Source: Beijerinckiaceae bacterium (GTDB taxonomy: Bacteria; Pseudomonadota; Alphaproteobacteria; Rhizobiales; Beijerinckiaceae). Taken from it: a stretch of DNA of 64,000 nt. The notes beneath the pieces were generated by a model. The model was not told the DNA's origin and searched no databases. It saw only the letters and a program-made list of their open reading frames with translations. How positions within the stretch are numbered: the stretch's first letter is position 1; every line of letters starts with the position of its first letter. The position numbers were made by a program, and so were the translations under genes. Shown piece by piece: positions 5,276-26,284 of the stretch. Location: positions 124,001-188,000 of the forward strand of contig JAPZTO010000001.1 in assembly GCA_027532775.1 (NCBI GenBank), written 5' to 3'.

Positions 5276-6105
5276 ACCCGCATCCGAAAGAAATGCACCG
5301 TCAGGCCCGGGTCATCGAGCGCCAGCGCGGCCTGCGCGAGGCCTCTGCCGTGCAGCTGCGGGTGGTCTCGGCGCTGATGATCCGCGAGGCGCTGACACGC
5401 TACGGCCACGAGAATCTCGGCTTCTTCTGGATCATGGGCGAGCCGCTCGTCCTGACGGTCGCCGTCATGTTCATGGTGTCGATGACGGGCACGGGGCACA
5501 GCCAGCAGCTCGGCATCATCCCCTTCGTCCTCACAGGCTATTCGATGCTGACGCTCTGGCGGCACTGCGTGTTCCGCTCGATCCACGCGATGCGCCACAA
5601 TGTCGGCCTGCTGTTCCACCGGAACGTGCGCTATCTCGACATCCTGATCTCGCGCATCGCGCTGGAGAGCCTCGGTGGCCTGGCCGCATTCTTCGTGGCC
5701 TATGTGCCGCTGTCCCTGCTCGGCGTGTTCGAGCCGATGGATGATCCGCTGCTCCTGCTCGGCGCCTGGTTCCTGATGACCTGGTATGGCTTCGGGTTCG
5801 GCCTGATCCTTGCCGGGATCACCGAGATCTGGGAAGCGACGGAGCGGTTCGTCAGCCCGATGATGTATATCTCGATCCCGATCACCGGCGCCTTCTTCAT
5901 GGTCAACTGGTTGCCGGATACGGCGCAGAAGCTGGTGCAATGGTCGGTGCTTGTGCACCTTTTCGAGATGTTCCGCGCCGGGTTCTTCGGGCCCAAGGTC
6001 ACGACCTACTGGGATCTCGGCTTCATCCTCGCCCATTGCCTGACCGTGACCGCGATCGGCCTGCCGCTGGTCCGCAAGGCGCAGCAGCGCGTGAGCATGG
6101 GATAA
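5272..6105 (+). CDS. kpsM: ABC-2 type polysaccharide export permease (KpsM-like)
   Basis: A 277-residue protein with about six hydrophobic segments and the ABC-2 permease layout of KpsM/BexB/RkpT. The N-terminal amphipathic region ends in LMIREALTRYGHENLGFFW, a familiar signature of capsule export permeases. It forms the membrane channel with the KpsT-like ATPase encoded two genes later and moves finished polysaccharide across the inner membrane. It overlaps the upstream PCP gene by four bases and is separated from the next gene by four bases, so the operon is tight. Confidence 0.9.
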   Translation: MNPHPKEMHRQARVIERQRGLREASAVQLRVVSALMIREALTRYGHENLGFFWIMGEPLVLTVAVMFMVSMTGTGHSQQLGIIPFVLTGYSMLTLWRHCVFRSIHAMRHNVGLLFHRNVRYLDILISRIALESLGGLAAFFVAYVPLSLLGVFEPMDDPLLLLGAWFLMTWYGFGFGLILAGITEIWEATERFVSPMMYISIPITGAFFMVNWLPDTAQKLVQWSVLVHLFEMFRAGFFGPKVTTYWDLGFILAHCLTVTAIGLPLVRKAQQRVSMG

Positions 6106-6109
6106 CGCC

Positions 6110-7354
6110 ATGTCGAAGCTCATGTCCCGGAATGCGGACACACCCCTGTACGAGGATGAATCATCCGGCGCCGTGCCGGTGCCGTTCTCTGTCGCGCTCA
6201 CCCCGGTCACCCGGGGGCAGCTGGCCGACCAGGAGGCCGAGGCCGCCGGCCCGCGTGGGCTGGCCGGATTCTTCGGCCGCTACGGCCTGTTCACCGGGAT
6301 CGTCGCCCTGCCATCCCTCGTGGCCGCCCTGTTCTTCGGGCTGATCGCCGCCGGCCAGTATGCCTCGGAGACCAAGTTCATCGTCCGGTCGGCCTCGAGC
6401 GGTGGCGACAGCGTGCTGTCGATGCTGGGCCAGGCGCCCGGCATGTCGCGCGCGGCAGACGAGACCCATGCGGTGGGCGCCTTCATCCGCTCGCGCGACA
6501 TGGCCTCGGAACTCGAGAAGGAAGGCATTCTCCGGCCGATTCTCTCGCGCCCGGAAGCCGATTTCATCACACGGTTCCCGAACATCTATTCGCGCGACAA
6601 TGACGAGTCGCTCTACAAGGCGTATCTGCGCAAGGTGGATGTCGATGTCGATACGAGTTCCGGCATCACCACGATGCGGGTCTTCGCCTACCGCCCGGAT
6701 GATGCGCAGGAACTCTCGCGCCGGATCATCGAGCGCAGCGAGGCCTTCATCAACCGGCTGAATGTCCGGGCGCACAAGGATGCGATTTCCTATGCGGAAA
6801 TGCTGGTCCGCGAGAGCACGGACAGGCTCGGCCAGACCGAACGGCGCCTCGCGGAATACCGCAACCGGGAGATGATCATCGATCCGGCCAAGGAATCGGC
6901 TGCCTCGATGGAAACGCTCGCGAAGATCTCGACCGAGATCTCGCGGATGGAAGCCGCCCTCGCGCAGCAGGTCGCGCAGACGCCGGACAACCCGACGATC
7001 GGCTCGGCCCGGGAGCGGGTCCGCACCCTGCGGGACGAGCTGGACAAGCTGCGCCGGAATGTGGCGGGGGATGAACGTTCCATCGCCTCGAAACTGGAAG
7101 GGTTCGAGCGCCTGTCGCTGGAGCGCGAATTCGCGGCCAAGGGCCTCGGCGCCGCGCTGATCGAACTCGAGAAAGCCCGCCAGTTCGCCCAGACGCAGCG
7201 GATTTACCTTCAGACGATCGTGGCGCCGAACAGCGCCGACATGCCGACCTACCCGATGCGGCTGCTGATGATCGCCCTGGTGGCGGGGATCGCGCTCACC
7301 ATCTTCTGGACGATCAAGTCGCTGATCGACATCATCCTCGAGCATCAGGCATGA
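6110..7354 (+). CDS. kpsE: Capsule export inner-membrane protein, KpsE/BexC family (second copy)
   Basis: This 414-residue paralogue of the protein two genes upstream keeps the same plan. It has an N-terminal cytoplasmic tail of about 60 residues, a transmembrane helix at about residues 62-84, the conserved GQYASETKFIVRS segment, a helical periplasmic region with YRNREMIIDPAKE (compare FRNRELLIDPSKS in the first copy), and a C-terminal membrane helix near residues 385-405. Its N-terminal tail is longer and proline-rich. It overlaps the ATPase start by four bases. The pair may form a hetero-oligomeric adaptor, or the two copies may serve different polysaccharides. Sequence alone does not decide. 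Confidence 0.87.
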   Translation: MSKLMSRNADTPLYEDESSGAVPVPFSVALTPVTRGQLADQEAEAAGPRGLAGFFGRYGLFTGIVALPSLVAALFFGLIAAGQYASETKFIVRSASSGGDSVLSMLGQAPGMSRAADETHAVGAFIRSRDMASELEKEGILRPILSRPEADFITRFPNIYSRDNDESLYKAYLRKVDVDVDTSSGITTMRVFAYRPDDAQELSRRIIERSEAFINRLNVRAHKDAISYAEMLVRESTDRLGQTERRLAEYRNREMIIDPAKESAASMETLAKISTEISRMEAALAQQVAQTPDNPTIGSARERVRTLRDELDKLRRNVAGDERSIASKLEGFERLSLEREFAAKGLGAALIELEKARQFAQTQRIYLQTIVAPNSADMPTYPMRLLMIALVAGIALTIFWTIKSLIDIILEHQA

Positions 7355-8097
7355 GCATCACGGCGGTTTCCGAAGCCTCGGTGCCGGCGCTGACAGGCGA
7401 CAATTCCTTCCGGCTGCCGCAGGCGATCGAGCCGGACAGCCGGTCGGCGCGGATCCGGATGGACGGCATCGTCAAGGATTACCACACGCCGATCGGGGTG
7501 CGGCGGGTGCTGAACGATGTCTCGTTCGAGGTCGAGGCTGGCGAAAAGATCGCGGTGCTCGGCCGGAACGGCGCGGGCAAGTCAACGCTCGTGAAGATCA
7601 TCGGCGGCGTCGAACCGCCGACCGCCGGCGTGATCGAGCGCGGGCTTTTCATGTCGTGGCCGATCGCCTTTGCCGGCGGGTTCGAGACCACGATGAGCGG
7701 CATCGACAATATCCGCTTTATCGCCCGCCTCTACAATGTGCCGATCCAGGAGACGATCGAACTCGTCGATGACTTTGCCGAACTGGGCAAGCACCTGCTG
7801 CTGCCGGTGAAGACCTATTCCTCCGGCATGCGCGCCCGCCTTGCCTTCGGGCTGACCCTCGCCGTCGCCTTCGAATGCTTCCTGATCGACGAAGTGATCT
7901 CGGTGGGCGACCAGCGCTTCCAGCGGAAATGCCACGAGGAACTGTTCATCAAGCGCAAGCATTGCGCGATGATCCTCGTCAGCCATGACATCAACATCAT
8001 CCGCAATTATTGCGACAAGGCGCTGATCCTGAAGAATGGCCGCGGCCGGGTCTTCTCCGATCTCGACCTGGCACTCGATATCTATCACTCGCTCTGA
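7351..8097 (+). CDS. kpsT: ABC transporter ATP-binding protein for polysaccharide export (KpsT-like)
   Basis: The ATPase motifs are intact: Walker A GRNGAGKST at residues 71-79, signature YSSGMRARLAFGL, Walker B ECFLIDEV, and the switch histidine in LVSHD. At 248 residues it is the short KpsT/RkpS type and lacks the C-terminal carbohydrate-binding domain of O-antigen Wzt proteins. That matters because a WbdD-like chain terminator is encoded downstream; in E. coli O9a the cap made by WbdD is recognised by that missing domain. The gene is last in the four-gene export operon. Confidence 0.92.
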   Translation: MSITAVSEASVPALTGDNSFRLPQAIEPDSRSARIRMDGIVKDYHTPIGVRRVLNDVSFEVEAGEKIAVLGRNGAGKSTLVKIIGGVEPPTAGVIERGLFMSWPIAFAGGFETTMSGIDNIRFIARLYNVPIQETIELVDDFAELGKHLLLPVKTYSSGMRARLAFGLTLAVAFECFLIDEVISVGDQRFQRKCHEELFIKRKHCAMILVSHDINIIRNYCDKALILKNGRGRVFSDLDLALDIYHSL

Positions 8098-9255
<1,158 letters not shown>

Positions 9256-9277: not shown

Positions 9278-10246
9278 ATGCGGGTTTTGCTGACAGGCGG
9301 AGGCGGGTTCGTGGCACGCCACGTGGCCACCTGCCTTGCCGGCATGCTGGGCGACCGGCTCGACCTGATCGTCGCCCGTCGCAGCGAGAGCGAGGCTGCG
9401 CTGCCGCAGGGACGTGGCGTTTTCCTCGACATCACCGACCGGCAGGCGGCCTTCGACCTCGTCGAGTCGCAGCGCCCGTCGGCGATCATCCATCTCGCCG
9501 GCATTTCCGACGTCTCCGTCGCCGAGCGGAACCCCGACCTGACCTGGCAGGTCAACCTGATGGGCACGTTGCACCTTGCCCATGCGCTCAAGGCCCATGT
9601 GCCGGAAGGTACGTTTGTCTTCGCCGGCTCCAGCCAGATCTATGGCAGCAAGCCGGAAGAGGGCCGCCCGTTCAGCGAGCGCGATCTCCTGAAGCCGATG
9701 GGCCAGTATGGCGCCACCAAGGCTGCGGCGGACCTGGCCCTCGGCGCGCTGGCGGCGCAGGGCCTCAGGACGATCCGCTTCCGGCCCTTCAACCATATCG
9801 GGCCGGGCCAGGGGGCAGGCTTCGTCGTGCCCAGCTTCGCGGCGCAGATCGCCCGGATCGAGGCCGGCCTGCAACCTCCGGTTATCAAGGTCGGCAATCT
9901 CGACGCCGAGCGGGATTTCATCGATGTGCGGGATGTCGCCCGCGCCTACAGCCTGGCGGTCACGCGGGCCGAAACGCTGCCGGCCGGCGCGATGATCAAT
10001 CTCGCCTCCGGCCATCCGACGCGGATCGGGCATTTGCTCGACGGGCTGATTGCCCTGTCCTCCGTTCCGATCGCGGTCGAGGTCGATCCCGAGCGCGTGC
10101 GGCCGAACGATATCCGCAGCCTTGCCGGCAATGCCGATCACGCCCGGGAATGCCTCGGCTGGGTGCCGGAAATTCCGCTCGCCGAGACGTTGAGGGATAT
10201 TCTCGACGAACAGCGTCGCGTGGTGCGCGTGGCCGCCCGCGCTTGA
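9278..10246 (+). CDS. rmd: GDP-6-deoxy-4-keto-mannose reductase (Rmd-like), forms GDP-D-rhamnose
   Basis: An NAD(P)-dependent sugar epimerase/dehydratase-family SDR. The nucleotide loop is LLTGGGGFVARH, and the catalytic pair is YGATK (Tyr144, Lys148). RPFNHIGPGQGAGFVVPSFA and VGNLDAERDFIDVRDVARAY are the blocks shared by Rmd reductases of A-band polysaccharide loci. Directly following gmd, it should reduce the 4-keto intermediate to GDP-D-rhamnose. A role in GDP-6-deoxy-D-talose synthesis is possible, since stereochemistry cannot be read from sequence. Its stop lies 12 bases from the stop of the convergent glycosyltransferase gene. Confidence 0.8.
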   Translation: MRVLLTGGGGFVARHVATCLAGMLGDRLDLIVARRSESEAALPQGRGVFLDITDRQAAFDLVESQRPSAIIHLAGISDVSVAERNPDLTWQVNLMGTLHLAHALKAHVPEGTFVFAGSSQIYGSKPEEGRPFSERDLLKPMGQYGATKAAADLALGALAAQGLRTIRFRPFNHIGPGQGAGFVVPSFAAQIARIEAGLQPPVIKVGNLDAERDFIDVRDVARAYSLAVTRAETLPAGAMINLASGHPTRIGHLLDGLIALSSVPIAVEVDPERVRPNDIRSLAGNADHARECLGWVPEIPLAETLRDILDEQRRVVRVAARA

Positions 10247-10258
10247 AAAGCCACGCCG

Positions 10259-11590
10259 TCAGCCGCTGCCGGCCCCTTTCGGGGCGTTGAGCGCGAGCAG
10301 GCGAGACAGGCTGCCCCGGGAAAGGGTTTCCGCCTCGGCAACGACCGCCTCGAAAAGCGCATCCTCCTCGGCCTGTTGCGAAACAGGGGCAGGCTTGGTG
10401 GCAGGTTTGCGCGCCGCGATGCCGCCGATGGCGGCCAGCCCTTCGCGGGCGGAACGCGCCCAGGTGAAATCCGCGGCCCGCGCCAGTCCGTGCCGCGCCA
10501 GCCTCTCCCGGAGATCCGGATCGCGCATCAACGCGAGGATGCGGCCCGCCAGGTCTTCGGGATCACGCGGATCGAAAAGGGCCTCGTCGAGGCCGACAAC
10601 TTCCGGCAGGGCCCCCGCCCGGGCGGCAAGGACCGGCACGCCGGAAGCCATGGCCTCCAGAGCGGTCAGCCCGAACCCCTCCATCAGCGAAGGCTGGATC
10701 ACGAGATCGGCGCGGCGATAGATCGAGACAAGGTCCTCGTCGCGGAAGGAGCCGGCCAGTACCAGCTCCTCCTCCGCGAGGCCGAGGCGGCGGGCCTGGC
10801 TCAGCAGGGCCTCACCTTCCCCCGGCGAATAGGCGCCATGCACCTCGAACCGGAAAGCCGGTCCGCCCTGCTGGCGGACGCGTTGCAGCGCGTCGAGACA
10901 GACGCCAACGTTCTTCCGGGGATCCAGCGCACCAACATAGAGGATGGTGAAGGGGCTGGCCGGCTGGCGCGGCCTGATCGTTCCGGCCAGCCAGTCCGGC
11001 GCGATGCCGGCGGACAGGTTGGTGACGGCTTCGGCGCCGAGGATGGCCCGCGTCTCCTCCGCCGCGAAGGCGGATATGGCGAGGAACCCGTCGAAGGCCC
11101 GGAGGCCGGCGACGAGAGCGCCATAGGCTTCGCGGTCCTTCGCCGTCCTCAGATAGTCATCCGGCATCCGGTGCGGGATGAAATCATAGATGATGGCAAA
11201 GCCGGGCCGGGCAAAGGCCGGGCCCGGGCGGAACGGAACGAACGGGTGCGACATCGCCTCGAAAGGCGACAGGCAAATCGCAGCATCGGGCGCGATCATG
11301 CCGACATGCAGGTCCAGCACCCGCTCGGACACGCGCCGCCGTTCGGTGGCGCCGGTAAAGGCCAGCCCGGCTTCGGCGATGCCATGCCAGTGTCGGATCT
11401 CCAACCCGGGCACATCCCGGAGCAGGGCATCCTCGATGGCCTCGAGATCATCCGGGACAGCGGCATTGAGCGAGAGGACGAGTTCGGCGCCCTCACCGGC
11501 CAAGGCGCGGATCCAGGCAAGGGCATAGCGGCCGATGCCGCGCCGCCGGCTGCTCGACTGGAAACATTGTCCGTCCAGCCAAAGCTTCAT
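10259..11590 (-). CDS. Glycosyltransferase family 4 (group 1)
   Basis: A GT-B glycosyltransferase of 443 residues. The C-terminal nucleotide-sugar domain shows FTILYVGALDPRKNVG, ADLVIQPSLMEGFGLTALEAMA with the EGFG-x5-E motif, and SGVPVLAARAGALPEVVG. The N-terminus begins MKLWLDGQCFQSSSRRRGIGRY, typical of GT4 mannosyl- or rhamnosyltransferases of the WbdB/WbdC type. It probably adds GDP-mannose or GDP-rhamnose units to the growing polysaccharide. Its start overlaps the stop of a small upstream open frame by four bases. The C-terminal 60 residues extend past the GT domain and have no recognisable motif. Confidence 0.88.
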   Translation of the reverse strand: MKLWLDGQCFQSSSRRRGIGRYALAWIRALAGEGAELVLSLNAAVPDDLEAIEDALLRDVPGLEIRHWHGIAEAGLAFTGATERRRVSERVLDLHVGMIAPDAAICLSPFEAMSHPFVPFRPGPAFARPGFAIIYDFIPHRMPDDYLRTAKDREAYGALVAGLRAFDGFLAISAFAAEETRAILGAEAVTNLSAGIAPDWLAGTIRPRQPASPFTILYVGALDPRKNVGVCLDALQRVRQQGGPAFRFEVHGAYSPGEGEALLSQARRLGLAEEELVLAGSFRDEDLVSIYRRADLVIQPSLMEGFGLTALEAMASGVPVLAARAGALPEVVGLDEALFDPRDPEDLAGRILALMRDPDLRERLARHGLARAADFTWARSAREGLAAIGGIAARKPATKPAPVSQQAEEDALFEAVVAEAETLSRGSLSRLLALNAPKGAGSG

Positions 11591-12063: not shown

Positions 12064-13311
12064 ATGGCTCCGATGTCGTCGCGTTATCGTCGAATCACCG
12101 AATGCCGGATCGGCGGCGGCAGCGATCTCGTTTCCGTGCTCAATCTCGGCGAACAGACCCTGACTGGCGTCTTCCCGAAGGATCCGAACCAGGCCATCAC
12201 GCGCGGGCCGCTCGAACTGGTCTGGTCGCCGAAGAGCGATCTTCTCCAGCTCGCGCATACGTACGATTCCAGCGAGATGTACGGCGAGAATTACGGCTAT
12301 CGCTCGGGCCTCAACCAGAGCATGGTCGATCATCTCACCCGGAAAATCCGCCATCTCGAACGTCTTGCCGATCTCAAACCCGGCTCGACGGTGCTCGATA
12401 TCGGCTCGAATGATTGCACATCGCTCAAGGCCTACCAGACCAGCGCCCTCAAGCGCATCGGCATCGATCCCACCGGCAAGAAGTTCGCCCAGTACTATCC
12501 GGATGATGTGAAACTGGTGCCGGATTTCTTCTCGGCCGACAATTTCTGGAGCGTCTCGAAGGAAGCAGCGTCGATCGTGACCTCGATCGCGATGTTCTAT
12601 GATCTCGACGATCCGATCGGTTTCGCGCGCCAGATCGAAAAGGTTCTCGCGCCGAATGGCATCTGGCATTTCGAGCAGAGCTACATGCCTTCGATGCTGC
12701 GCCTGTGCTCCTATGACACGATCTGCCACGAGCATCTCGAATACTACTCGCTGGCGGCCGTGGTGCGGATCCTCGATGCCGCGGACATGAAGGTCATCGA
12801 TGTGCAGATGAATGCCGTCAATGGCGGCAGCTTTGCCGTCACGGCGGCGAAGAAATCCAGCTCGGTGCGGCCGAACCGGCCGGTCATCGACTGGCTGCTC
12901 GAGCAGGAAGACCGCATGGGCCTGCGCACGCCGAAGCCCTACCGGGAATTCGAGGAGCGCGTCTATCGCCATCGTGACGATCTGGTGCGGCTGATCAACA
13001 GCCTCGCTGCCGACGGCAAGACCGTCCTGGGCTATGGCGCCTCGACCAAGGGCAATGTGGTGCTGCAGTTCTGCGGGCTGACCGCGAAGCAGATCCCGGC
13101 CATTGCCGAGGTGAACCCGGAGAAGTTCGGCGCCTTCACGCCCGGCACCAACATTCCGATCGTCTCGGAAGCCGATGCCAAAGCCATGAACCCGGATTAC
13201 TTCCTCGTGCTGCCGTGGCATTTCAAGGACGGCATCCTGCGCCGCGAGGCGGAATACATCAATCAGGGCGGCAAGATGATCTTCCCGTTCCCTGAAATCG
13301 AGATCATCTGA
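12064..13311 (+). CDS. SAM-dependent methyltransferase, sugar C-methyltransferase-like
   Basis: A 415-residue protein with the three-part plan of NDP-sugar C-methyltransferases (TylC3/NovU/TcaB9 type). It has an N-terminal small domain, a central Rossmann methyltransferase with VLDIGSNDCTSL at about residue 110, and a C-terminal domain containing VLGYGASTKGNVVLQFCGL and DYFLVLPWHFKDGILRRE. Family members normally bind zinc through several cysteines at the N-terminus. Here only one is visible (ECRIGG), so metal binding is probably lost. AGAGGA precedes the ATG. Neighbours suggest action on the GDP-rhamnose-derived glycan or its nucleotide precursor. Whether it methylates carbon, oxygen or nitrogen is not clear. 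Confidence 0.82.
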   Translation: MAPMSSRYRRITECRIGGGSDLVSVLNLGEQTLTGVFPKDPNQAITRGPLELVWSPKSDLLQLAHTYDSSEMYGENYGYRSGLNQSMVDHLTRKIRHLERLADLKPGSTVLDIGSNDCTSLKAYQTSALKRIGIDPTGKKFAQYYPDDVKLVPDFFSADNFWSVSKEAASIVTSIAMFYDLDDPIGFARQIEKVLAPNGIWHFEQSYMPSMLRLCSYDTICHEHLEYYSLAAVVRILDAADMKVIDVQMNAVNGGSFAVTAAKKSSSVRPNRPVIDWLLEQEDRMGLRTPKPYREFEERVYRHRDDLVRLINSLAADGKTVLGYGASTKGNVVLQFCGLTAKQIPAIAEVNPEKFGAFTPGTNIPIVSEADAKAMNPDYFLVLPWHFKDGILRREAEYINQGGKMIFPFPEIEII

Positions 13312-13348: not shown

Positions 13349-15886
13349 GTGAAACGGATCTTCTGGCTTGGAATGCACAAGCTGCTGGTGCGCACCGAAC
13401 TGGTTCGGCTGCGCAAGCTCGGCTACGAGGTGTTCAACCCCCCGTATCTGAGCCCGGTCTATGACCAGTCGGCCAATCTCGACTGGGACAGCCAGCAACC
13501 GACCACCCTGCCCCGGGAGGTTTTCGAGGCGCTCTCGCAGCACAATTTCTTCTACAATTCGGTGCCGGAGCCGATCGCGGAACTGCTCAACACGTATTTC
13601 GATACGGTTGTCGTCACGATCAATCCCGACTGGCTGACCGAGATCCTCAAGGTCTATAAGGGGCGGCTGATCTATCGCACCTATGGCCAGCCCTATCCGC
13701 TTTCGGAATATCTCTGGAACAACGGCGCCGGACGGCTGATCCTCGACCGCCCGGATTTCCTGTTCATGCCGTTCCATGCCCGGTCGGTCGATCTCGAGCA
13801 TGACTGGCTGCTCGACCGGATGCGCGTGGTCCCCTACCAGATCGATGACGACATCCTTGATCTCGCCGGGACCTATGAGGGCCCGCGCGAGACGCGGATC
13901 ATGGTCACCTGTCCGAATATCGACAACCGCTACTATCATGCGCATTACCGGCATCTGAAGCGGCATTTCGGTGCCCCGTATTACAGCTATTACGGCGTCC
14001 AGCCCCGGAAATTCGACGATCCGCAGATCGTCGGCACCATCCCGCGCGCCGAATTGATGCGCCATTACCAGACATCCGCCGGCTCTCTCTACACGCATGG
14101 CGGGCCCATGGTTTCCTATCTGCCGCCGATCGAGATGATGACCATCGGTGGCCCGGTCATCTCCATCCGCCACAACCTGCTGGCGCGGATGCTTCCCAAG
14201 GATGCGCCGGGCCTAGCGGATAACGAGGATATCGCGCGCGATCATTGCCGCCGGCTTGTCGAGAAGGACAAGGTCTTCGCCGCCGAGATCATCGCCAGCC
14301 AGGGCGAGGCCGCCCGGAACTATCACCGGGACTATGTGAACCCGATCTTCGATGCGGCCCATGCGGAATGGATGGCACCGGAACGGGCCAGCCCCGCGCC
14401 GGCGCTGATCATCAATGCGCCGCCGCCTGCCCGGCCGGCATCGGGGCGCAAGCGCATCTACCTCCTGTTCCATTTCCCCGGCAGCATCGTCGGGCGGCGG
14501 GAGAGCGCCTATTTCTCGGCCGAGGGAATCCCCCGTGTGGCCCGGCAGTTCGTCGAGGGCCTCCTCCGGGCGACGGATTACGAAGTGGTCGTGACGACGA
14601 CCTATGGCAATGCACCCTTCACCATGGGCTATTTCGGCGCGAAGGGCGAAAGCCGGGTGAAGGTGCTGGTGGTCGACGATTTTCCGGCCATCCGGAGCCA
14701 TCATGTCCGGACGCCGTCCCTGCCCGAGAAGGCGTTCGACGCGCTCGGCAAGCGCTGGCGCTACTGGTCGTTCCGCCATCTGCCGGTCTTCCTGCGCAAC
14801 CTGCCCGACGATGCCGCCAGGCTGGCCGTCTCCGCCTTCCGCCGGGTCGAATGGCGCCTCGCCCGGCTCCTGCCCCGGAAGCATGTGCCCGTTGCGACCC
14901 CGGTCGATGTCGCCAAGGTTGTCGACAGCGATCCGCATGCCGCCGGCGTGATCGTGCCACATTACTACCTGTTCCCGGAAGCGGCGCGGATGGCCACGCG
15001 GCATGCGCTCTATCTCCCGGATTACACGCCGCATTTCTTCAAGGGCGGCAAGGCCTTCCCCGGGCAGGAGGAGCATGCGCGGATCGGCAAGGCCCTGTGC
15101 CGTTCGGCCAGTGTCATCATCTCCAATTCGGAGTTCACGCGGTCCTACCTGGCCGAGACGGAACTGGAAGTCGATATCGCCAAGCTGCGCGTGTTCCCGC
15201 TGCCGAACCTCAACCTCGCGCCGCCGCCGGATTCGGCAGAGCCGGGCTCGCCGGTCCAGAACCATGTCGCCGTCCTCGCCCGGCAGCGGCCGATCCTGTT
15301 CTACCCGACGCAGAACCGGCCCAACAAGAACATTGCCTTCCTGCTCGAACTGCTCGACGGGATGATCCGCGACTGGGCGAAAATCGGGCCGGAGGGCATG
15401 GAGCCACCGGTTCTGGTCCTGACCTGCAGCCTCGATGACTTCCCGCCTGTCCGGGAAGCCTACCAGCGGCTCGGGATGCAGCCGCATGTCATCCTCGTCT
15501 CGGGATCCTCGGATGCCGATCTGCGCTGGATCTATGCGCGCGCGGCGGCCCTGGTGCTCACCACGACGATGGAGGGCAATTTCCCGCCGCAGGTGCTGGA
15601 GGCCCTGGCCTATGACACGCCTGTCGTGGCGGCGCGGATCCGGCTGATCACCGACGAACTGGGCGACCGGCCGGATGACCTGCTCCTCGCCGAGCCGATG
15701 GACGATGCTTCCTTCCGGGCGGCCCTGCTGCGGGCGCTGACGGACCGGGAAGCGGTGATCGCCAGCCAGCAGAATGCCTACCGTCGGTTGATGGAACGGC
15801 GCTCGCCCGCCTATTTCGGCGAGCAGATGGCCGGAATCGCCGCCATTCTCGACTCCGCACCGGCGCCGCAGGGCCGGGCTGGATGA
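13349..15886 (+). CDS. Two-domain glycosyltransferase, candidate polymerase
   Basis: An 845-residue protein. The C-terminal half (about residues 370-840) is a GT4-type GT-B enzyme with ILFYPTQNRPNKNIAFLLEL and the motif TTMEGNFPPQVLEALAYDTP (about residue 740). The N-terminal third begins MKRIFWLGMHKLL and looks like a second, divergent glycosyltransferase-like module: TYGQPYPLSEYLWN, then YLPPIEMMTIGGPVIS near residue 255. A proline/alanine-rich linker lies at about residues 335-365. The size and two-module plan resemble WbdA, the O9a polymannose polymerase, which fits the WbdD-like gene two frames downstream, but this is inference. The start is GTG, preceded by GGAG and AGG. Confidence 0.75.
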   Translation: MKRIFWLGMHKLLVRTELVRLRKLGYEVFNPPYLSPVYDQSANLDWDSQQPTTLPREVFEALSQHNFFYNSVPEPIAELLNTYFDTVVVTINPDWLTEILKVYKGRLIYRTYGQPYPLSEYLWNNGAGRLILDRPDFLFMPFHARSVDLEHDWLLDRMRVVPYQIDDDILDLAGTYEGPRETRIMVTCPNIDNRYYHAHYRHLKRHFGAPYYSYYGVQPRKFDDPQIVGTIPRAELMRHYQTSAGSLYTHGGPMVSYLPPIEMMTIGGPVISIRHNLLARMLPKDAPGLADNEDIARDHCRRLVEKDKVFAAEIIASQGEAARNYHRDYVNPIFDAAHAEWMAPERASPAPALIINAPPPARPASGRKRIYLLFHFPGSIVGRRESAYFSAEGIPRVARQFVEGLLRATDYEVVVTTTYGNAPFTMGYFGAKGESRVKVLVVDDFPAIRSHHVRTPSLPEKAFDALGKRWRYWSFRHLPVFLRNLPDDAARLAVSAFRRVEWRLARLLPRKHVPVATPVDVAKVVDSDPHAAGVIVPHYYLFPEAARMATRHALYLPDYTPHFFKGGKAFPGQEEHARIGKALCRSASVIISNSEFTRSYLAETELEVDIAKLRVFPLPNLNLAPPPDSAEPGSPVQNHVAVLARQRPILFYPTQNRPNKNIAFLLELLDGMIRDWAKIGPEGMEPPVLVLTCSLDDFPPVREAYQRLGMQPHVILVSGSSDADLRWIYARAAALVLTTTMEGNFPPQVLEALAYDTPVVAARIRLITDELGDRPDDLLLAEPMDDASFRAALLRALTDREAVIASQQNAYRRLMERRSPAYFGEQMAGIAAILDSAPAPQGRAG

Positions 15887-15908: not shown

Positions 15909-16976
15909 ATGGGAACCGCCATGCTGATCGCGTCCTTCGCCAGCGACACGATCTATGGACGGTTCTGCCACGATCTCGTGCGGACCATCGTCGCATCGGC
16001 CAGGCCTGACTTCCTCGCGATCGAGGCGGAATCGGTGCGCGACATGGCCGACCAGGTGGCCGGGCGCCGGGTGCCGGGCATCCTCGTCCTGTCCTGCCGG
16101 CCGGAAAGTGACCTGCTGCAGATTGCGGGGCGGCTGCATGGCCGCACGATCCTGTTCGACGAATATGCCGAGGACCTGGCCGGCAATTTCCTGCGCCAGA
16201 AGCGGTTCACCTGGCCGGTCGCGCTGCAGCATACCTGCGCCTTTTTGTGCACCACGGCCCCGGTGCGCAAGGCAGGCGGGCCAGCCCTGACGGTGCTCCG
16301 CCGGCCAGGGCTGACGCTCCGGATGCTGCTCGCCACGATCCTCCAGGTGCTCGAGATGCCGATGGAACCGGCGAAGCTGGTCGAGGCAGCGGCGCGGATC
16401 GACATCCGCCTCCCGCAGGATCTGGATCGCCTGCTCGACGAGGTCCTGCTCGAACGGGATCCGGCCATCACGCCGGCGGGGGCCGGCATCCAGGAACTGA
16501 CCATGGATGCCGTGGAGTTGATGCGGAACATCTACGAGCCCATCGTCACCCTGATCAATGGCGGCGAGGCACGGCCGATCATCTGGCCGGTCGAGATCTT
16601 CTTCGCCCAGACGGAGAAGAAGGCCGTCAGCGGCGTGCGCCCGGAACCCCAGACGATGCTCGGGCCGGCCCGCTTTCTCTATTTCGGGCCCTATCTCTGC
16701 TTGCCGGCGGGCCGGTGGCAGGCTATGGCCGAGTTCGAAGTGAAGAACAATCTCTCCCGGAACCGGGTGGAGATTGATATATCTCGAAATAACGAAACAA
16801 TTTCATTCAGTCTTGTTGATCTGCCCGAAGAGGGTTTTTTTACCGCTGTCACCGATTTTTTCAATGACCGCGGCGAGTTGCCGATCGAGATGCGGATCTT
16901 CCTTAAGGAAGGCGCCATCGAAGGCCAGTTTGAATTGAAGAAAGTGATGTTGACCCCGATTTCAGAGGGGGTTTGA
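15909..16976 (+). CDS. Hypothetical protein in polysaccharide assembly cluster
   Basis: I do not recognise this 355-residue protein. It begins MGTAMLIASFASDTIYGRF and has a Rossmann-like first 120 residues with hydrophobic strands (GILVLSC, TILFDEY), a helical middle, and a beta-rich C-terminus. It has no signal peptide or clear membrane segment. It sits between the candidate polymerase and the WbdD-like terminator on the same strand, so it may be an assembly partner or a non-canonical transferase. An alternative start is the ATG at 15921. The last 200 bases are much richer in A and T than the rest and contain a run of seven T at 16835. Confidence 0.7.
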   Translation: MGTAMLIASFASDTIYGRFCHDLVRTIVASARPDFLAIEAESVRDMADQVAGRRVPGILVLSCRPESDLLQIAGRLHGRTILFDEYAEDLAGNFLRQKRFTWPVALQHTCAFLCTTAPVRKAGGPALTVLRRPGLTLRMLLATILQVLEMPMEPAKLVEAAARIDIRLPQDLDRLLDEVLLERDPAITPAGAGIQELTMDAVELMRNIYEPIVTLINGGEARPIIWPVEIFFAQTEKKAVSGVRPEPQTMLGPARFLYFGPYLCLPAGRWQAMAEFEVKNNLSRNRVEIDISRNNETISFSLVDLPEEGFFTAVTDFFNDRGELPIEMRIFLKEGAIEGQFELKKVMLTPISEGV

Positions 16977-16980
16977 TTTC

Positions 16981-16996
16981 AGGAGTTTTTATTTTG
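16981..16996 (+). promoter_or_regulatory. Ribosome binding site deciding a TTG start
   Basis: AGGAG at 16981-16985 is followed by eight bases and then TTG at 16994. The frame has no ATG or GTG near the beginning of the methyltransferase domain, so this TTG is the best start. The upstream in-frame TTG at 16973 overlaps the previous stop and has no such site. Confidence 0.65.
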
Positions 16997-18643
16997 ATTG
17001 ATCCATTGCTGGAAGCCGCGGTTGCGGCCTTGCCCGAATTCTATCAACCCATCTATGGCCATACCGAGCGTTGGTCCGCCTCCCGGAAAACCGAGGATCG
17101 CGTCGAAGCGATCCTGCCGGTTGTCGAGGCTTTCGCCACCCTGCATGGCCGGCCGCCACGCATCCTCGATATCGGCTGCGCGCAGGGCTATCTGGCGCTG
17201 CGCCTCGCCGAAAGCGGGGCGCTGGTGCTGGGCATCGACAATGACCCGCGGAATATCCGGGTCTGCACCTTGCTGGCGGAAAGCCATCCGCATCTCGCGG
17301 CGCATTTCGAGGAGGCGGAAGCGATCGAGTTCCTGGCTGACCTGCCGGAGGACCGGTTCGACCTCGTGATCGGCCTGAGCGTCATGCATCATATCTGCCA
17401 CCGGATCGGCCTCGCCGCGACCAGGCGACTCGTTGCCGGGATTGCCACCCGCAGCCCGATGGCCCTGTTCGAACTGGCCCTCCGGGAAGAGCCGCTCTAC
17501 TGGGCGGCAGATCTGCCGGCCGACCCGTATGACCTGCTCGGGGATTTCCGGTTCCTCCGCGAGATCCGGCAATTCCCCACGCATCTCTCGTCCATCGCCC
17601 GGCCGCTGATCTTCTGTTCGAACCCTCTGGCCCTTGTCGGCGACGCCCTGTACCGGATCGATTCGATCCGCACGCAATCCGTGGTGGGGATCCATGACGG
17701 CGAGGCGGCGGGCCAGGCCTATATCGAGTCGGGGCCCGATTTCCTGAAACACGTCACTCTCCGCAGCCTGAACTGGGAAGCCAAACGCGCGGAACTGGCC
17801 CGGGAAGCCGCCTATCTGGCCGGCCCGGACCGGGCGGAGGAGGACCCGATCCTGTTCGGGCACGGGGCGACCGGTCGGGAGGCCTGGCTCCGCCGCAGCC
17901 GGCTTCCCGGCGAGACGCTGGATATCGTGAAGGGCCGGGGCGAGCCGATCGATGCCATCCGCATCACGCGGAGTATCCTGAGGCAACTGGCCCGGCTGGA
18001 GGCGCGCGGCTGGTATCACGGCGATGTCGCGCTGTGGAATGTGGTGCTGGGCCCGGATGGCGATGCGCGGCTGATCGATTTCGGCGCGTTGCGGCGCGAG
18101 CCCGTGAACTGCGTCTGGCCGGAGGACCTGCGCCTCGCCTTCGGGCAGTTCCTGTTCGACCTGACATCCAGCCTGCCGCTGCGGGCCTTTCCGGTCCGCA
18201 GGCCCCGCTTCCGGCCGTCCCACCTGCCCTTTCCCTTCCGCGATGCCTTCGATTCGCTGCTCTCGGAGGTTCCGGAATGGTCGGCGCAGTCCCTGCTGGA
18301 CCGGATCGACCGGGCGCTGCAGCAAGGCCCCGCCGGCACGGTTCCCTCCGTCGAGACCAGTCTTGCGACCGCGCTTGACGAATATGTCGACCGGCTGGGC
18401 GATACGGTGGAAGCCCTTCGCTCCGGCTATGTCCGCCAGCGCGACGGGCTGGAGGGGCATTTCCGGTGGCAGGCCGCCATGGAGGGGGCCCATCACCAGA
18501 CGCGACAACTCGTCGAGATGCTGGACGAGCGGCTGCGTGGGCTCGAACGCGCCCATCACGAGACCCGCCTGATGGTGGATCCGGTCGCCGCCGGCGGTCG
18601 CGCAAGCCTGCCCGCGCGGCTCCGGCGATGGATCGGCTGGTGA
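16994..18643 (+). CDS. WbdD-like methyltransferase-kinase, polysaccharide chain terminator
   Basis: The protein joins a class I methyltransferase (ILDIGCAQGYLALRLAE at about residues 57-73, FDLVIGLSVMHHI) to a protein-kinase-fold phosphotransferase with YHGDVALWN (His342, Asp344) and LIDFGAL (Asp362). This order and these motifs match WbdD, which caps E. coli O8/O9a polymannose with methyl or methyl-phosphate groups and sets chain length. About 100 helical residues follow the kinase domain from residue 450 and end in a basic, tryptophan-containing amphipathic segment. WbdD has a much longer coiled coil there, so this ruler is short. The start is TTG, chosen from its AGGAG. It lies next to glycosyltransferase genes. 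Assignment rests on motif recall, not on an alignment I could run. Confidence 0.82.
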   Translation: MIDPLLEAAVAALPEFYQPIYGHTERWSASRKTEDRVEAILPVVEAFATLHGRPPRILDIGCAQGYLALRLAESGALVLGIDNDPRNIRVCTLLAESHPHLAAHFEEAEAIEFLADLPEDRFDLVIGLSVMHHICHRIGLAATRRLVAGIATRSPMALFELALREEPLYWAADLPADPYDLLGDFRFLREIRQFPTHLSSIARPLIFCSNPLALVGDALYRIDSIRTQSVVGIHDGEAAGQAYIESGPDFLKHVTLRSLNWEAKRAELAREAAYLAGPDRAEEDPILFGHGATGREAWLRRSRLPGETLDIVKGRGEPIDAIRITRSILRQLARLEARGWYHGDVALWNVVLGPDGDARLIDFGALRREPVNCVWPEDLRLAFGQFLFDLTSSLPLRAFPVRRPRFRPSHLPFPFRDAFDSLLSEVPEWSAQSLLDRIDRALQQGPAGTVPSVETSLATALDEYVDRLGDTVEALRSGYVRQRDGLEGHFRWQAAMEGAHHQTRQLVEMLDERLRGLERAHHETRLMVDPVAAGGRASLPARLRRWIGW

Positions 18644-18721
18644 CAGACGGGCAAAGCGTGCCCGGCGGAGGGAAATAGGGGCTTGCTCCAGGGGTGGGCG
18701 CGGCGTAGCACAGGGTTTCCC

Positions 18722-20032
18722 ATGTCCGCCCGCCCCATCGCCTATAATCTCGTCCGCCTTGCGCAGAGTGCCATCCACAATACCCCGCGCGGTGTGGACC
18801 GGGTGGATTTCGGCTATCTGTCGCATCTCTTCGAGACCTGGCCCGGCGAGATCCATGGCGTGCTGCCGACGGCCATCGGGATGCGTTTCTTCTCGCGCGA
18901 GCGTGTGCTGCGCGGGCGTGACCGCCTTGCCGCGCTGTGGCGCGAGCATGGCGGCGCGGGGGATGATGCCGCGCTCGACCGGCTGATCGACCGGCTTGGC
19001 GGGCGCCGGCGCGCCGGCGATCCCTCCGGCTTTGCCCGCCCCGCCGCGACGCAGCCGGGGTTGTTCTCGCCACGATCGATCTACCGCATGGCGCATGTGC
19101 TGCTGGGAGACGGGATCAGCTTCGGGCGGCCGATGCGGGAATTGCCGCCGGAGGCGGTCTATCTCGATATCGGCCATTACGGCATCACCTTCCCCGGCGC
19201 CTTCAAATGGCGGCAGCACCGGCCCGATATCGCACCGGTCTTCCTGATCCATGACGTGATCCCGCTGGATTATCCGCATTTCGTCGCGGAGGAGACCGTT
19301 ACTTCGCATGTGCGGGTGATGAAGAAGGTGGCGCGCCATGCGCGCGCGCTGATCGTACCCACGGCCTCGGCCGGCGAGAGCATCGCGCGGCGCCTGCAGG
19401 ACTGGAAGGCGCCGCCCAAGCCGATCCATGCCGTGCCGTTGCCAATCGACGACCTTTTCCTCAGCCGGATCGCCCCGAACCCGGCCTTGCAGAAGCACCC
19501 CTATTTCGTGATCTGCGGCGCGATCGAACCGCGCAAGAACCACGCCCTGCTCCTCGATATCTGGGACGGGCTGGTGCGCGATTACGGCGCGGCCGCGCCG
19601 CGGCTGGTGATTGCCGGCGCGCCGGGCTTCCGCTCGGACGAGGTGCTGGCCCGGATTGCCGCCTCGCCGCATCTGACGGACCATGTGATTGCCGCTCGCG
19701 GGCTGTCGAGCCCGGCCCTGGCCGAACTCATGGCAGGCGCGCGGGCGGTGCTGATGCCCTCCTTCGCGGAGGGCTTTGGCCTGCCACCTGTCGAGGCGAT
19801 GGCTCTCGGCACGCCGGCTCTCGTCTCCGACATTCCGGCCCATCACGATGCCAATGGCGACTGGGCCCTGTTCCGCGCACCGGATGACCATGCCGGCTGG
19901 AAGCAGGACATTCTCCGGCTGAGCCAGGACGGCGCGGAATATCTCGCGCTGAAGCAGCGGCTGTCGCAGTTCCGCCCTGCCAACTGGCCGACCTACATGG
20001 CCGAGATCGGGCGCATCCTGCAGGATGTCTGA
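18722..20032 (+). CDS. Glycosyltransferase family 4
   Basis: A GT-B enzyme of 436 residues. YFVICGAIEPRKNHALLLDIW begins the nucleotide-binding domain, and VLMPSFAEGFGLPPVEAMALGTP carries the EGFG-x4-E retaining motif. The N-terminal MSARPIAYNLVRLAQSAIHN and a PRGVDRVDFGY segment are typical of mannosyltransferases in ABC-exported polysaccharide loci. I chose the ATG at 18722 because the 13 codons before it read as non-coding (MLQGWARRSTGFP). It probably adds GDP-mannose or GDP-rhamnose residues. Its stop faces the stop of the KpsS-like gene at a distance of 18 bases. Confidence 0.88.
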   Translation: MSARPIAYNLVRLAQSAIHNTPRGVDRVDFGYLSHLFETWPGEIHGVLPTAIGMRFFSRERVLRGRDRLAALWREHGGAGDDAALDRLIDRLGGRRRAGDPSGFARPAATQPGLFSPRSIYRMAHVLLGDGISFGRPMRELPPEAVYLDIGHYGITFPGAFKWRQHRPDIAPVFLIHDVIPLDYPHFVAEETVTSHVRVMKKVARHARALIVPTASAGESIARRLQDWKAPPKPIHAVPLPIDDLFLSRIAPNPALQKHPYFVICGAIEPRKNHALLLDIWDGLVRDYGAAAPRLVIAGAPGFRSDEVLARIAASPHLTDHVIAARGLSSPALAELMAGARAVLMPSFAEGFGLPPVEAMALGTPALVSDIPAHHDANGDWALFRAPDDHAGWKQDILRLSQDGAEYLALKQRLSQFRPANWPTYMAEIGRILQDV

Positions 20033-20050: not shown

Positions 20051-21349
20051 TCAGGCCACGGGATCCCGATCGACCGGCACACCGAGGCGGCGCGCGGCCT
20101 CGATCCGGGGCGGCGGATCGACAAAGCCGCCGGGTTCGTTGACCTTGCGGTCGAGGATGCGGCCAATGACGGTCTCCACCGCCTGCCGGCGTCCTTCGGG
20201 GTGGTAGAACGAGCCCTTGACCTGGATCGTCGCCGCCAGCACGCGGATGAAGGCCTCGACCAGCGCGGCATCGACCGGTTCGGGGTTCTGCCAGAAACTG
20301 TCCAGCGTGCCCTGATGCGTCAGGCCCGGCATGTCGTAGATCGCCATGCCGAGGATCTTGGTCGGGCAGGTCTTGCGGAGCGAGAACAGGCCGACGGTCG
20401 AGTTGATCATCACGCAGCCGCGGGCGCTCGCCAGCAGGCGGCCGAGATCACCGCCATCGATGAAGGAAACCCGGCCGGCCAGGCCATGCCGCCGGGCAGC
20501 ACGGGCGACGAGGCCGGCGAAATCCTCCGCATTGTTGTCATGCGGGTGCTGCTTGACCACGAGATCGGCCCCGGCCGGCGCGTGCCGGGCAAACGAGGCG
20601 AAGACCATCTCGATCATCTCGCCCATATGCGTGAAGGGCGAGTTGTCGCGGATCTGGTAATCGCCCTGCAATTGCAGCGGCAGGACGAAGTAGGGCCGCC
20701 CCGAAGCCAGATGCGCCTCGATCGTCGCCTCGGCCGCCCGGGCGAGCGCCTTCTGGCGCAGCAGGTGCGGAATGCCGACCAGCACTTCGAGAATGGAATT
20801 GTAATGCTTGCCGGATTGCCAGCCCGGATACAGCGCCCGCCAGAAGAAGTTGAACCAGGAATAGGTCACTTCATGGAGGATCTCGGTCCAGAAGCCGACG
20901 GGATAGCGCACGACGAGATCGGGCGGCGGGCATTCCGCGGCGAGCGCGCGGTAGCGCGCCGGGTCGACCGGCATATGCGAATAGGCGCCCATGCCGCCTC
21001 GCTCGAGCGTGATCCAGTCCGGCCGGAGATAGCCGTTCTCGACGGCATAGGCTGGCAGGCCGGCCTCTTCGGCCACCTGCCGGGCCGCAACGTGATAGGC
21101 GAAGCGATCGGCATAATAGAGGATGTCGGTGATGCCCTCGCGCCGGATCAGGCGGCGGAGGAAATCGGGCCAGTTGCGGAGACGGCCACGATAATGGATG
21201 CCGCCGAGGCGCCCCCAGTAGAGAAATTCGCCCAGCGCGAAATGCACCTTGATCACCCGGTGCCCGGCGGCCTCGAACCCCCGGCCCAGTTCACGCCAGA
21301 ACGGGGCGGTCGGGCCATGCAACATCAGGATCACACGGGACGATGACAT
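20051..21349 (-). CDS. kpsS: Capsule polysaccharide transferase, KpsS/LipB/RkpJ family
   Basis: This 432-residue protein starts MSSSRVILMLHGPTAPFWRE and has the Capsule_synth family signatures: YRGRLRNWPDF, YAVENGYLRPDWITLERGG, the block LPLQLQGDYQIRDNSPF, and VVKQHPHDNN. KpsS transfers the first beta-Kdo residue onto a lipid acceptor to begin the poly-Kdo linker of group 2 capsules. RkpJ is the rhizobial relative. Its usual partner KpsC is not in the window. An upstream in-frame start at 21457 adds 36 low-quality residues and is less likely. It shows that the island has a capsule-type lipid-linked step. Confidence 0.88.
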   Translation of the reverse strand: MSSSRVILMLHGPTAPFWRELGRGFEAAGHRVIKVHFALGEFLYWGRLGGIHYRGRLRNWPDFLRRLIRREGITDILYYADRFAYHVAARQVAEEAGLPAYAVENGYLRPDWITLERGGMGAYSHMPVDPARYRALAAECPPPDLVVRYPVGFWTEILHEVTYSWFNFFWRALYPGWQSGKHYNSILEVLVGIPHLLRQKALARAAEATIEAHLASGRPYFVLPLQLQGDYQIRDNSPFTHMGEMIEMVFASFARHAPAGADLVVKQHPHDNNAEDFAGLVARAARRHGLAGRVSFIDGGDLGRLLASARGCVMINSTVGLFSLRKTCPTKILGMAIYDMPGLTHQGTLDSFWQNPEPVDAALVEAFIRVLAATIQVKGSFYHPEGRRQAVETVIGRILDRKVNEPGGFVDPPPRIEAARRLGVPVDRDPVA

Positions 21350-21479
21350 CGGATTCCGGTCGAGCTCCGGTTGAGTGCTGGCTTGCCCGTGGATACCGGG
21401 CCCGCCCAGCCGTTTAGCGCGGATTGCGGCAGGCCGGGAGCCGAAAATGCCCGGCATGCACAGCGCTGGTCAGAGGTGA

Positions 21480-24084: not shown

Positions 24085-25248
24085 TCAGAACCCGCTGGCG
24101 AGGGCCGAGGCGGTCAGGGCCGGCTGGGCCGCCGTGTTGAATAGGGCGAGAACCTTCTGGAGCTCGTTCAGCGGCGCATTCGCAATGTAGACCATGTCGC
24201 GGTTGCGGACATCGATCTTCTGCGCGAGGAAATACGAGCGCGGGTCCCGCATGTTGACGCGGTAGACCACCGGAACGCGGGTATCGTGGGCGGCGAGCAC
24301 GAAAGTCGGATCAAGCTGGCGCGCGATCTGCGCTGATTCGAAGCGAAGCAGGAACACGCCTTCCGGATCGGACCGGAAATCGAGCAGGCCGCCGGCCTTG
24401 GCGAGAGCTTGCTCGAGGGTGATGCCGGCCGCATCGAACGGCACGACAGCATTGCGGCCGGTGGCGCCGAAGGCCGAGAAGGTCTGCGGTTCGCGGATCA
24501 CGGTGAGCACGTCGCTCGGATGGGCGAAGATGTTCTCGGACGGGTTCTGGATCAGCCGCTGCATCGGAACGGTGACCGCGCGGCCGCCGCGCTGCAGGGT
24601 GACGAAGGTTTCATGCGCCGGCGCGCGGATACCGCCGGCCGTGGCCACGACATCGAGGATGCGTTCACCCCGCACCGAAAGCGGCACGCGGGCCCCGGCC
24701 GTGACTTCCCCGAGGACCGTCACGGAATTCGAGAAGCCGCGCGGCACGGTGACGAGCACCTGCGGCTCGATGGCCTTGCCGGTCAGGCGCTCGACGATGC
24801 GGCGCTCGACTTCCGGCGTGGTGAGGCCGGCCACGGCAACGCGGCCCGCATAGGGAACCGTGATCGAGCCATCCCGGGCGACAACCTGCTCGGGAATGAC
24901 GGCCGAGCGCGCGCCGGTGGAATTGCGGTCAATGGCGGGCGAGGAGAACAGGCCGCCGGCTGCGGCTTCCCAGATCGTCACGAGGATCGTGTCGCCAATG
25001 CCGATCCGCTGCGAGGGCGGCGGCCGGCGATCACCGAAGCTGTCGTTGAACGAGCGCGCGCGCGTGCCGGAGAGGATGGTCACGACCTCCTCGTTCACGT
25101 CACGCAGGATGTAGCGGATCTGCGTTTCGTTCGTCGAAGCCATGGTCACTTCGGCCGAAGTCGGACCCGATGACGGCAGGGCCGAACATCCCGCAAGGCC
25201 AATGGCCGCGAGAACAAAGCCTGCCCAAGTCCTGAAGCTGGAAATCAT
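24085..25248 (-). CDS. Outer-membrane polysaccharide export lipoprotein (Wza/KpsD, OPX family)
   Basis: The protein begins MISSFRTWAGFVLAAIGLAGC, a lipoprotein signal with the lipobox cysteine at residue 21. A poly_export domain follows (IGIGDTILVTIWEAA, RDGSITVPYAGRVAVAG, VTVPRGFSNSVTVLGEV), then SLBB-type repeats (PLSVRGERILDVVATAGG; FDAAGITLEQALAKAGGLLD). It forms the outer-membrane channel of the capsule exporter and should pair with the KpsE-like adaptors. An in-frame upstream start at 25281 would spoil the signal peptide, so I use 25248. Directly downstream, four bases away, is the 3-ketosphinganine-reductase-like gene. Confidence 0.93.
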   Translation of the reverse strand: MISSFRTWAGFVLAAIGLAGCSALPSSGPTSAEVTMASTNETQIRYILRDVNEEVVTILSGTRARSFNDSFGDRRPPPSQRIGIGDTILVTIWEAAAGGLFSSPAIDRNSTGARSAVIPEQVVARDGSITVPYAGRVAVAGLTTPEVERRIVERLTGKAIEPQVLVTVPRGFSNSVTVLGEVTAGARVPLSVRGERILDVVATAGGIRAPAHETFVTLQRGGRAVTVPMQRLIQNPSENIFAHPSDVLTVIREPQTFSAFGATGRNAVVPFDAAGITLEQALAKAGGLLDFRSDPEGVFLLRFESAQIARQLDPTFVLAAHDTRVPVVYRVNMRDPRSYFLAQKIDVRNRDMVYIANAPLNELQKVLALFNTAAQPALTASALASGF

Positions 25249-25392
25249 CCGGTCTACCAAACCCAACCCGTCACGTCTCACGCACCCTGACTACACAGTC
25301 GCACGGCGAAAGCAAATGATCCGTGACACGATTGTGGTTCCCTGACGCAATTTCGCAACAGGTTTAATGCCAGCTTAACCATATGAAATTCA

Positions 25393-26277: not shown

Positions 26278-26284
26278 GCGAGGC

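Follow-up and report, generated by a model that had tools for sequence, protein, structure and literature searches.

A WbdD-like methyltransferase-kinase in a KpsM/T/E/D-type export locus of a Beijerinckiaceae bacterium

What does a chain-capping enzyme do in a locus whose exporter has no domain with which to read the cap? In E. coli O9a, the cap is required for export because the carbohydrate-binding domain (CBD) of Wzt reads it. The 64,000-nucleotide stretch of Beijerinckiaceae DNA considered here (GCA_027532775.1, contig JAPZTO010000001.1, positions 124,001 to 188,000; hereafter the window) carries a WbdD-like gene in a KpsM/T/E/D-type locus, where the ATPase ends without such a domain. We favour, with a probability of roughly 0.55, the reading that a WbdD-type terminator stops elongation inside this pathway and that export ignores the cap. 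The pairing would uncouple chain stopping from export licensing, roles that go together in O9a, and is a possible way to test how such surface chains get their length.

The gene and the parts of its product lie as follows.

16994..18643, plus strand: WbdD-like methyltransferase-kinase, 549 aa, TTG start, AGGAG at 16981-16985
17105..17638, plus strand: methyltransferase domain, P0006 residues about 45-222, borders approximate
17639..18292, plus strand: kinase domain, P0006 residues about 223-440, borders approximate
18293..18640, plus strand: C-terminal region of the WbdD-like protein, with a heptad-like stretch (459-494) and AHHxTR repeats; the tail is basic and aromatic

The open frame spans 16973-18643. 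Given the AGGAG 8 nt upstream, and given that the first start codon of the homologous frame in a congener (locus L014) falls at the corresponding place, the TTG at 16994 is the likely start, and the coordinates given in a preliminary description of this DNA were right. Residue numbers refer to P0006, the translation from 16973; those of the real protein are lower by 7. The same description had read the product as a methyltransferase followed by a kinase, with the motifs and order of WbdD, and this is borne out. E. coli O9a WbdD (4uw0) is the top phmmer match among solved structures (E 3.9e-77) and covers both domains (P0006 residues 14-445), while the best chain other than WbdD in that search has E 3.4e-07; at an E-value of 1e-77, chance cannot account for the match. 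Methyltransferase profiles score above cut-off within residues 45-143, and the kinase part contains HGDVALWN and DFG.

In O9a WbdD, mutants of Y16, H132, H133 or R203 lose detectable methylation and retain phosphorylation, and N356, D369 and E274 bind metal-ATP (PMC3482155). The first four residues correspond to Y24 (just upstream of the methyltransferase domain), H139, H140 and R210 of the window protein, all kept, and its kinase domain keeps K259, E274, D351, W355, N356 and D369. When the window protein is aligned with 60 WbdD-like sequences from a genome scan (61 rows in all), the O9a columns H132, D351, N356 and D369 are invariant (61/61), Y16 and R203 are kept in 60 rows with one gap each, H133 in 58 and E274 in 56; the window protein and its counterpart from Caldimonas caldifontis, discussed below, carry all eight. 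The O9a pocket residues N34 and Q35 are replaced in the window by E and D (E in 22/61 rows, D in 46/61), and Y230 by V (3/61). The retained R203 and two histidines suggest that the methyl acceptor may be a phosphate.

The exporter and the precursor genes that accompany it are these.

4073..5275, plus strand: KpsE-like inner-membrane adaptor 1 (PCP-3), TIGR01010 E 1.2e-80, 271.3 bits (cut-off 437.5)
5272..6105, plus strand: KpsM permease, NF050053 65.6 bits (cut-off 300)
6110..7354, plus strand: KpsE-like adaptor 2, 34% identical to adaptor 1
7351..8097, plus strand: KpsT ATPase, 248 aa, without a C-terminal domain
8170..9255, plus strand: GDP-mannose 4,6-dehydratase (GMD), 441.8 bits (cut-off 415)
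9278..10246, plus strand: short-chain dehydrogenase/reductase (SDR), probable GDP-4-keto-6-deoxymannose reductase (RMD-like), named from its position beside GMD
24085..25281, minus strand: KpsD-like outer-membrane export protein (Poly_export, SLBB)

KpsM, a short KpsT, a PCP-3 adaptor and an OPX protein are thus all found, with scores that stay below the NCBIfam cut-offs for the named subunits; the second adaptor reaches 254.5 bits against TIGR01010, also under its cut-off. By sequence, the closest solved structure to the window KpsT is StKpsT (8tsi/8tsh; 8tsi E 4.1e-52). The preliminary description held that the sole export ATPase is 248 residues long, and the genome (99.73% complete) agrees: it has one KpsT/Wzt-type match at E<=1e-20, which is this KpsT (150 of 176 first-look candidates scored), and no match to Wzt_C (PF14524). 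A second Wzt elsewhere was considered, and the genome-wide search gave none. The Wzt_C profile was positive in two of the 11 genomes scanned, L017 and L018, controls whose WbdD loci have full-length Wzt. The nine negatives are the window genome, two congeners, Caldimonas, L016, L021, L027, L029 and L031, most of the last five being metagenome-assembled genomes (MAGs) and no completeness being given for genomes from named loci. The earlier label of group 2 suits KpsM, the short KpsT, PCP-3 and OPX, but not the PF05159 complement: a KpsC and KpsS pair was sought, and the genome gave a single PF05159 match (20051-21457) and no KpsC.

Whether such an exporter needs a cap is best judged from relatives with and without WbdD. 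A KpsT-type match occurs in 12 of 17 genomes of the genus, and a window-type KpsT (at least 83% identical) in six, the copy in G686 being a fragment at a contig end. Among these six, WbdD is present in the window genome (G000), G689 and G686 and absent from G082, G690 and G684. The three genomes without it share the order alpha-oxoamine synthase, kpsE, kpsM, kpsE, kpsT, GMD, RMD-like (kpsM is masked by an overlapping frame in the G082 listing); compared with the window, KpsT is 83% identical and both KpsE copies are 60-68% identical. Because these congeners keep the exporter order without WbdD, the exporter and the D-rhamnose-type precursor genes presumably work without it.

The same comparison bears on the idea that the exporter itself reads the cap through adapted KpsE, KpsM or KpsT surfaces. 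Two KpsE copies would provide spare surface for this, and terminated O-polysaccharide systems known so far do, as a rule, link cap and exporter (PMC11231755). However, the WbdD-less congeners retain both KpsE and KpsT in the same order, and no extra domain was seen that separates WbdD-bearing from WbdD-less exporters, the KpsT N-terminal extension being variable, which makes this idea very unlikely in our view. That extension was also considered as a cap reader in its own right and ruled out, as its sequence is not conserved. In G690 (L083:11685-16520), a 1612-aa protein combines an FkbM methyltransferase, two family 4 glycosyltransferase (GT4) domains and one GT2 domain, and is possibly another terminator-polymerase.

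KpsM points to recognition of the opposite end of the chain. Residues R43, W53, R97 and R102 of the window KpsM align with Arg35, Trp45, Arg89 and Arg94 of StKpsM (taking an offset of +3 between the chain numbering and that of the paper), and the Caldimonas KpsM likewise keeps all four. In StKpsM these residues are reported to be essential for export and lie in the canyon where the lipid end is bound; the same work describes KpsMT as broad in specificity and suggests that transport begins at the lipid (PMC11041684). The Klebsiella O1/O2 transporter, which has no carbohydrate-binding module (CBM), can export O3a in a recombinant (PMC11231755).

The WbdD-less congeners with the same exporter block, the four KpsM residues and the precedent of lipid loading by KpsMT are our grounds for favouring capping that stops elongation and is ignored at export. 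In this scenario, the kinase would phosphorylate and the methyltransferase would then methylate the non-reducing end of the growing glycan, and this capping would halt elongation. The C-terminal coil, which varies by a 21-residue unit between sister species, would set how far the chain grows before it is capped. KpsM/T would recognise the lipid (reducing) end, so that a cap would be unnecessary for export. The preliminary description had left a choice between capping that only stops elongation and a cap read by an adaptor or by the neighbouring protein P0008; the former fits best, and the latter is weakened by the occurrence of adaptors and P0008 without WbdD.

Several points weigh against cap-blind export combined with termination by WbdD. 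Characterised terminated O-polysaccharides require the cap for export (PMC11231755), and Wzm-Wzt transporters deprived of the CBD fail to export capped substrates (PMC9445017), so export without cap reading would be new for a WbdD-type system. Two further lining residues of StKpsM, Gln181 and Arg187, are A and S in the window KpsM. Past the DFG, the window protein has a short C-terminal region of 189 residues where the O9-type reference has 318, and the coil was judged by a crude heptad scan. G690, counted above as WbdD-less, may still cap its chains by means of its FkbM-glycosyltransferase fusion. Finally, the lipid anchor is uncertain, since no KpsC was found.

The neighbour that could read the cap in trans lies immediately upstream of the WbdD-like gene.

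15909..16976, plus strand: unknown neighbour P0008, 355 aa
16626..16973, plus strand: C-terminal jelly-roll domain of P0008, carbohydrate-binding-like fold, model pLDDT 78.4

P0008 has no match at E<=0.1 in Pfam or NCBIfam, PF14524 (Wzt_C) included, and its profile finds nothing better than E 1.6 in the PDB. The full-length model is poor (mean pLDDT 45.5), and residues 240-355, modelled from three close sequences, form a jelly roll at the confidence given above. The best 50 of 1882 Foldseek matches of this domain in the PDB include the sugar-binding domain of EclA and CBM4, CBM16, CBM61 and CBM70 (E 6e-5 to 1e-3), along with CBM6-bearing xylanases and unrelated jelly rolls. A jelly roll from a clostridial toxin pore ranks first, with TNF-like and C1q-like proteins at about equal scores.

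One could therefore suppose that the P0008 jelly roll binds capped ends and passes them to KpsM/T, replacing the Wzt CBD. The end of P0008 and the start of wbdD are 17 nt apart, and the C-terminal domain of P0008, the one with CBM and EclA matches, is its best conserved part; because that domain models as a carbohydrate-binding-like jelly roll, a neighbouring reader keeps some standing. Yet the fold is generic, with no Wzt CBD among those best 50 of 1882 matches, and the distribution fits poorly. The six genomes with a window-type KpsT are exactly the six with a P0008 homologue, three of them without WbdD. In G335, from another family, a P0008-like gene stands beside KpsT (61% identical), KpsE-like and KpsD-like genes, again without WbdD, and no P0008 homologue was found in the Caldimonas DNA obtained. 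As WbdD occurs in only three of the seven loci with P0008, this protein is probably not a cap reader, and we consider its substitution for the Wzt CBD decidedly unlikely. P0008 as a WbdD-specific reader was rejected, its distribution tracking the exporter; judging from model and distribution, it seems to be an accessory protein that binds glycan and goes with this kind of exporter.

The C-terminal region bears on the question of chain length. Among known systems, coiled-coil members act as rulers in O9a and O12 (PMC11231755). In the window protein, a crude heptad scan finds a short heptad-like stretch followed by 21-residue repeats, with AHHxTR copies at this spacing encoded at 18488-18505 and 18551-18568. 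The idea of a ruler rests on this coil, whose 21-residue unit is present in two copies in the window and in L014 and in three in L015, from another congener. A short coil would also suit an enzyme that decorates the chain end or primer without setting length, like the terminal pyruvate of Klebsiella O1. That L014 retains both the unit and the C-terminal tail and L015 has an expanded unit, that the Caldimonas copy has 380 residues after DFG, and that coiled-coil members are rulers in O9a and O12 all argue the other way, and we hold mere decoration to be unlikely, if worth keeping in view.

The enzyme does not look like an idle acquisition. The window and L014 proteins are 87% identical, with a ratio of nonsynonymous to synonymous substitution rates (dN/dS; Nei-Gojobori, custom script) of 0.154 over the whole gene; taken by part, the methyltransferase has 0.152, the kinase 0.115 and the C-terminal portion 0.245. 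Against L015, the whole-protein value is 0.246. These values, from two species pairs, indicate that the wbdD-like gene is under purifying selection. A non-working hybrid, in which WbdD was acquired by transfer and has no purpose, would agree with the rarity of the gene, which is found in 3 of 17 genomes of the genus and, at E<=1e-20, in 1 of 297 genomes of the order and 1 of 385 sampled from the class, both being the window's own. Purifying selection in both pairs and the retention of the tested catalytic residues nevertheless make this extremely unlikely. In the family sample, 5 of 397 genomes have WbdD at E<=1e-15, three from the genus and two divergent; the latter two genes, from other Beijerinckiaceae, stop soon after the kinase, with no kps-type genes recognised within 15-16 kb.

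How unusual the pairing is can be gauged from a census in which a named genome collection was scanned once with two short peptide patterns from five WbdD-like proteins; it yielded 68 WbdD-like loci and missed any with neither pattern. Sorted by length after the ABC signature motif, the ATPase has a tail of CBD length in 45 loci and is short in three: L014, L032 from Caldimonas caldifontis, and L029 from an Afipia MAG with galactan-type transporter genes. Six loci were unsortable by this rule; in three of them (L026, L038 and L050), the alignment with the reference Wzt runs nearly to its end, CBD included. For the remaining 14, the stored sequence shows no KpsT/Wzt-type ATPase; some of these lie on short contigs, as does L015 (3.1 kb). 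WbdD-like enzymes without such an ATPase in stored DNA include L016, L021, L027, L031, L037, L067, L070 and L072. In L027 the neighbour of the WbdD-like gene is a Polysacc_synt (flippase-type) protein, and the L031 genome has a KpsT-like match elsewhere that contains one TGA.

The Caldimonas caldifontis locus provides the second case, a kpsE-M-T/kpsD locus with a WbdD-like gene in a distant lineage. It encodes a ManC-like protein, phosphomannomutase, KpsE, KpsM, KpsT (217 or 239 aa, depending on the start), a glycosyltransferase and KpsD. The WbdD-like protein has 748 aa and a heptad-rich C-terminus. Also encoded are a 1073-aa glycosyltransferase, GMD, epimerase-like and RMD-like proteins and two more glycosyltransferases. 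PF05159 matches fall in two open frames, one of them KpsS-like (440.9 bits; cut-off 600). In the order of Caldimonas, 2 of 300 genomes have WbdD at E<=1e-30, and the second locus has a 436-aa Wzt. This second case has a practical side, since its genus is also the source of the solved KpsM/T-KpsE complex, Schlegelella thermodepolymerans being listed as Caldimonas thermodepolymerans. Trees were built from rows with at least 330 matched residues. A first quick tree of 60 rows separated the KpsT-linked enzymes; a more careful one of 44 rows, from which 16 near-copies and long-branched rows had been dropped, joined them with a support of only 66/76, and a tree uniting them was 19 log units better (p-AU 0.898). 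Between one and two origins of the pairing, the trees favour neither decisively.

More broadly, we tentatively propose, at somewhat less than even odds, that a WbdD-type terminator is dedicated to some KpsM/T/E/D exporters, that enzyme and coil set length and that export is cap-blind; the Beijerinckiaceae anchor would possibly be a special lipid made by the neighbouring polyketide synthase and alpha-oxoamine synthase and not Kdo-phosphatidylglycerol. WbdD in KpsM/T loci would then be a candidate for the chain-length factor that, according to a 2025 review, has still to be found. Ahead of the exporter block in the window lies an alpha-oxoamine synthase gene (BioF/serine palmitoyltransferase type; 339-1688); G689 and G684 have type I polyketide synthase modules ahead of the block as well (L085:1-2877, L106:12634-19899). 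Further candidates lie downstream.

23259-24080: SDR
25393-26358: lipid A-type acyltransferase
26285-27769: P450

Together, the oxoamine synthase, polyketide synthase modules, SDR, acyltransferase and P450 suggest a special lipid, perhaps a glycan anchor that replaces the missing KpsC product. Between the oxoamine synthase and kpsE, the gene at 1812-3911 encodes a protein with a serralysin-type C-terminal domain, DUF4214 repeats and RTX repeats, and in the congeners read a gene similar in length or look occupies its place.

The other genes of the locus concern the glycan itself.

10259..11590, minus strand: family 4 glycosyltransferase
12064..13311, plus strand: C-methyltransferase (PF08421/PF08484), sugar-modifying, distinct from the cap enzyme
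13349..15886, plus strand: 845-aa protein with a C-terminal GT4 domain, candidate polymerase part
18683..20032, plus strand: family 4 glycosyltransferase
20051..21457, minus strand: PF05159 protein, KpsS-like, 226.6 bits (below the cut-off of 600)

Both WbdD-bearing genomes tested (G000 and G689) have a strong PF05159 match of KpsS-like type; of the WbdD-less congeners, G082 and G690 have none at E<=0.001, and that of G684 is weak (E 7e-6) and lies in a protein some 700 aa long. The glycan probably contains D-mannose or D-rhamnose (6-deoxy-D-mannose). GDP-D-rhamnose is likely as a precursor because GMD scores above its curated cut-off and the next gene is RMD-like by position; the best profile match of that SDR is galE, far below its cut-off. 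In the census, GMD is matched at 45% identity or more in 30 of the 68 loci, 28 of which also have an RMD-like match, at a weak threshold of 28% identity. In Aquifex, methylated rhamnosyl and mannosyl caps have been reported (PMC9445017).

As regards novelty, a literature search gave no paper with both WbdD and KpsT and, among the papers listed, none describing such a pairing, most subscription papers lying outside the search. For E. coli 536, with a capsule of type K15/group 3, and for two other strains, the annotation names no methyltransferase among the kps genes, those labelled hypothetical being left out. The terminated O-polysaccharide examples are all described as having a CBM attached to the ATPase, and the Haemophilus influenzae type b capsule as lacking a chain-terminating residue (PMC11231755). 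How ABC-dependent capsules control their length is described as an open question (PMC12220298).

Each known system resembles the window in part. With the E. coli O9a and Klebsiella O3 WbdD it shares the methyltransferase followed by a kinase, the catalytic residues and a C-terminal helical extension; it differs in having no CBD on the ATPase and no Wzt_C match elsewhere in the genome, in its KpsE and KpsD partners and in a shorter C-terminus. With the KpsM/T/E/D exporters of Caldimonas thermodepolymerans (8tsh/8tsi) it shares the short KpsT, the four KpsM residues, PCP-3 and OPX; in contrast to these, it carries a chain terminator, two KpsE genes and, as far as found, one PF05159 protein. The CBM-less Klebsiella O1/O2 transporter exports without a cap reader, as is proposed here, but there the terminal group is a pyruvate on part of the O1 chains, no WbdD product is involved and a Wzm/Wzt pair serves the O-antigen of lipopolysaccharide (PMC11231755). 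Full novelty is tempered by many E. coli group 3 clusters, which have putative methyltransferase genes with a coiled coil of variable length in a KpsMT locus (2026, PMC13171606); the one passage that mentions them states no kinase or link to WbdD. In the Afipia MAG (L029:9941-14764), a WbdD-like methyltransferase-kinase also lies near a CBD-less ATPase; there it is fused to GT4 domains (1608 aa), and ATPase and permease best fit the galactan Wzt and Wzm profiles (287.7 and 269.2 bits; cut-offs 400 and 380).
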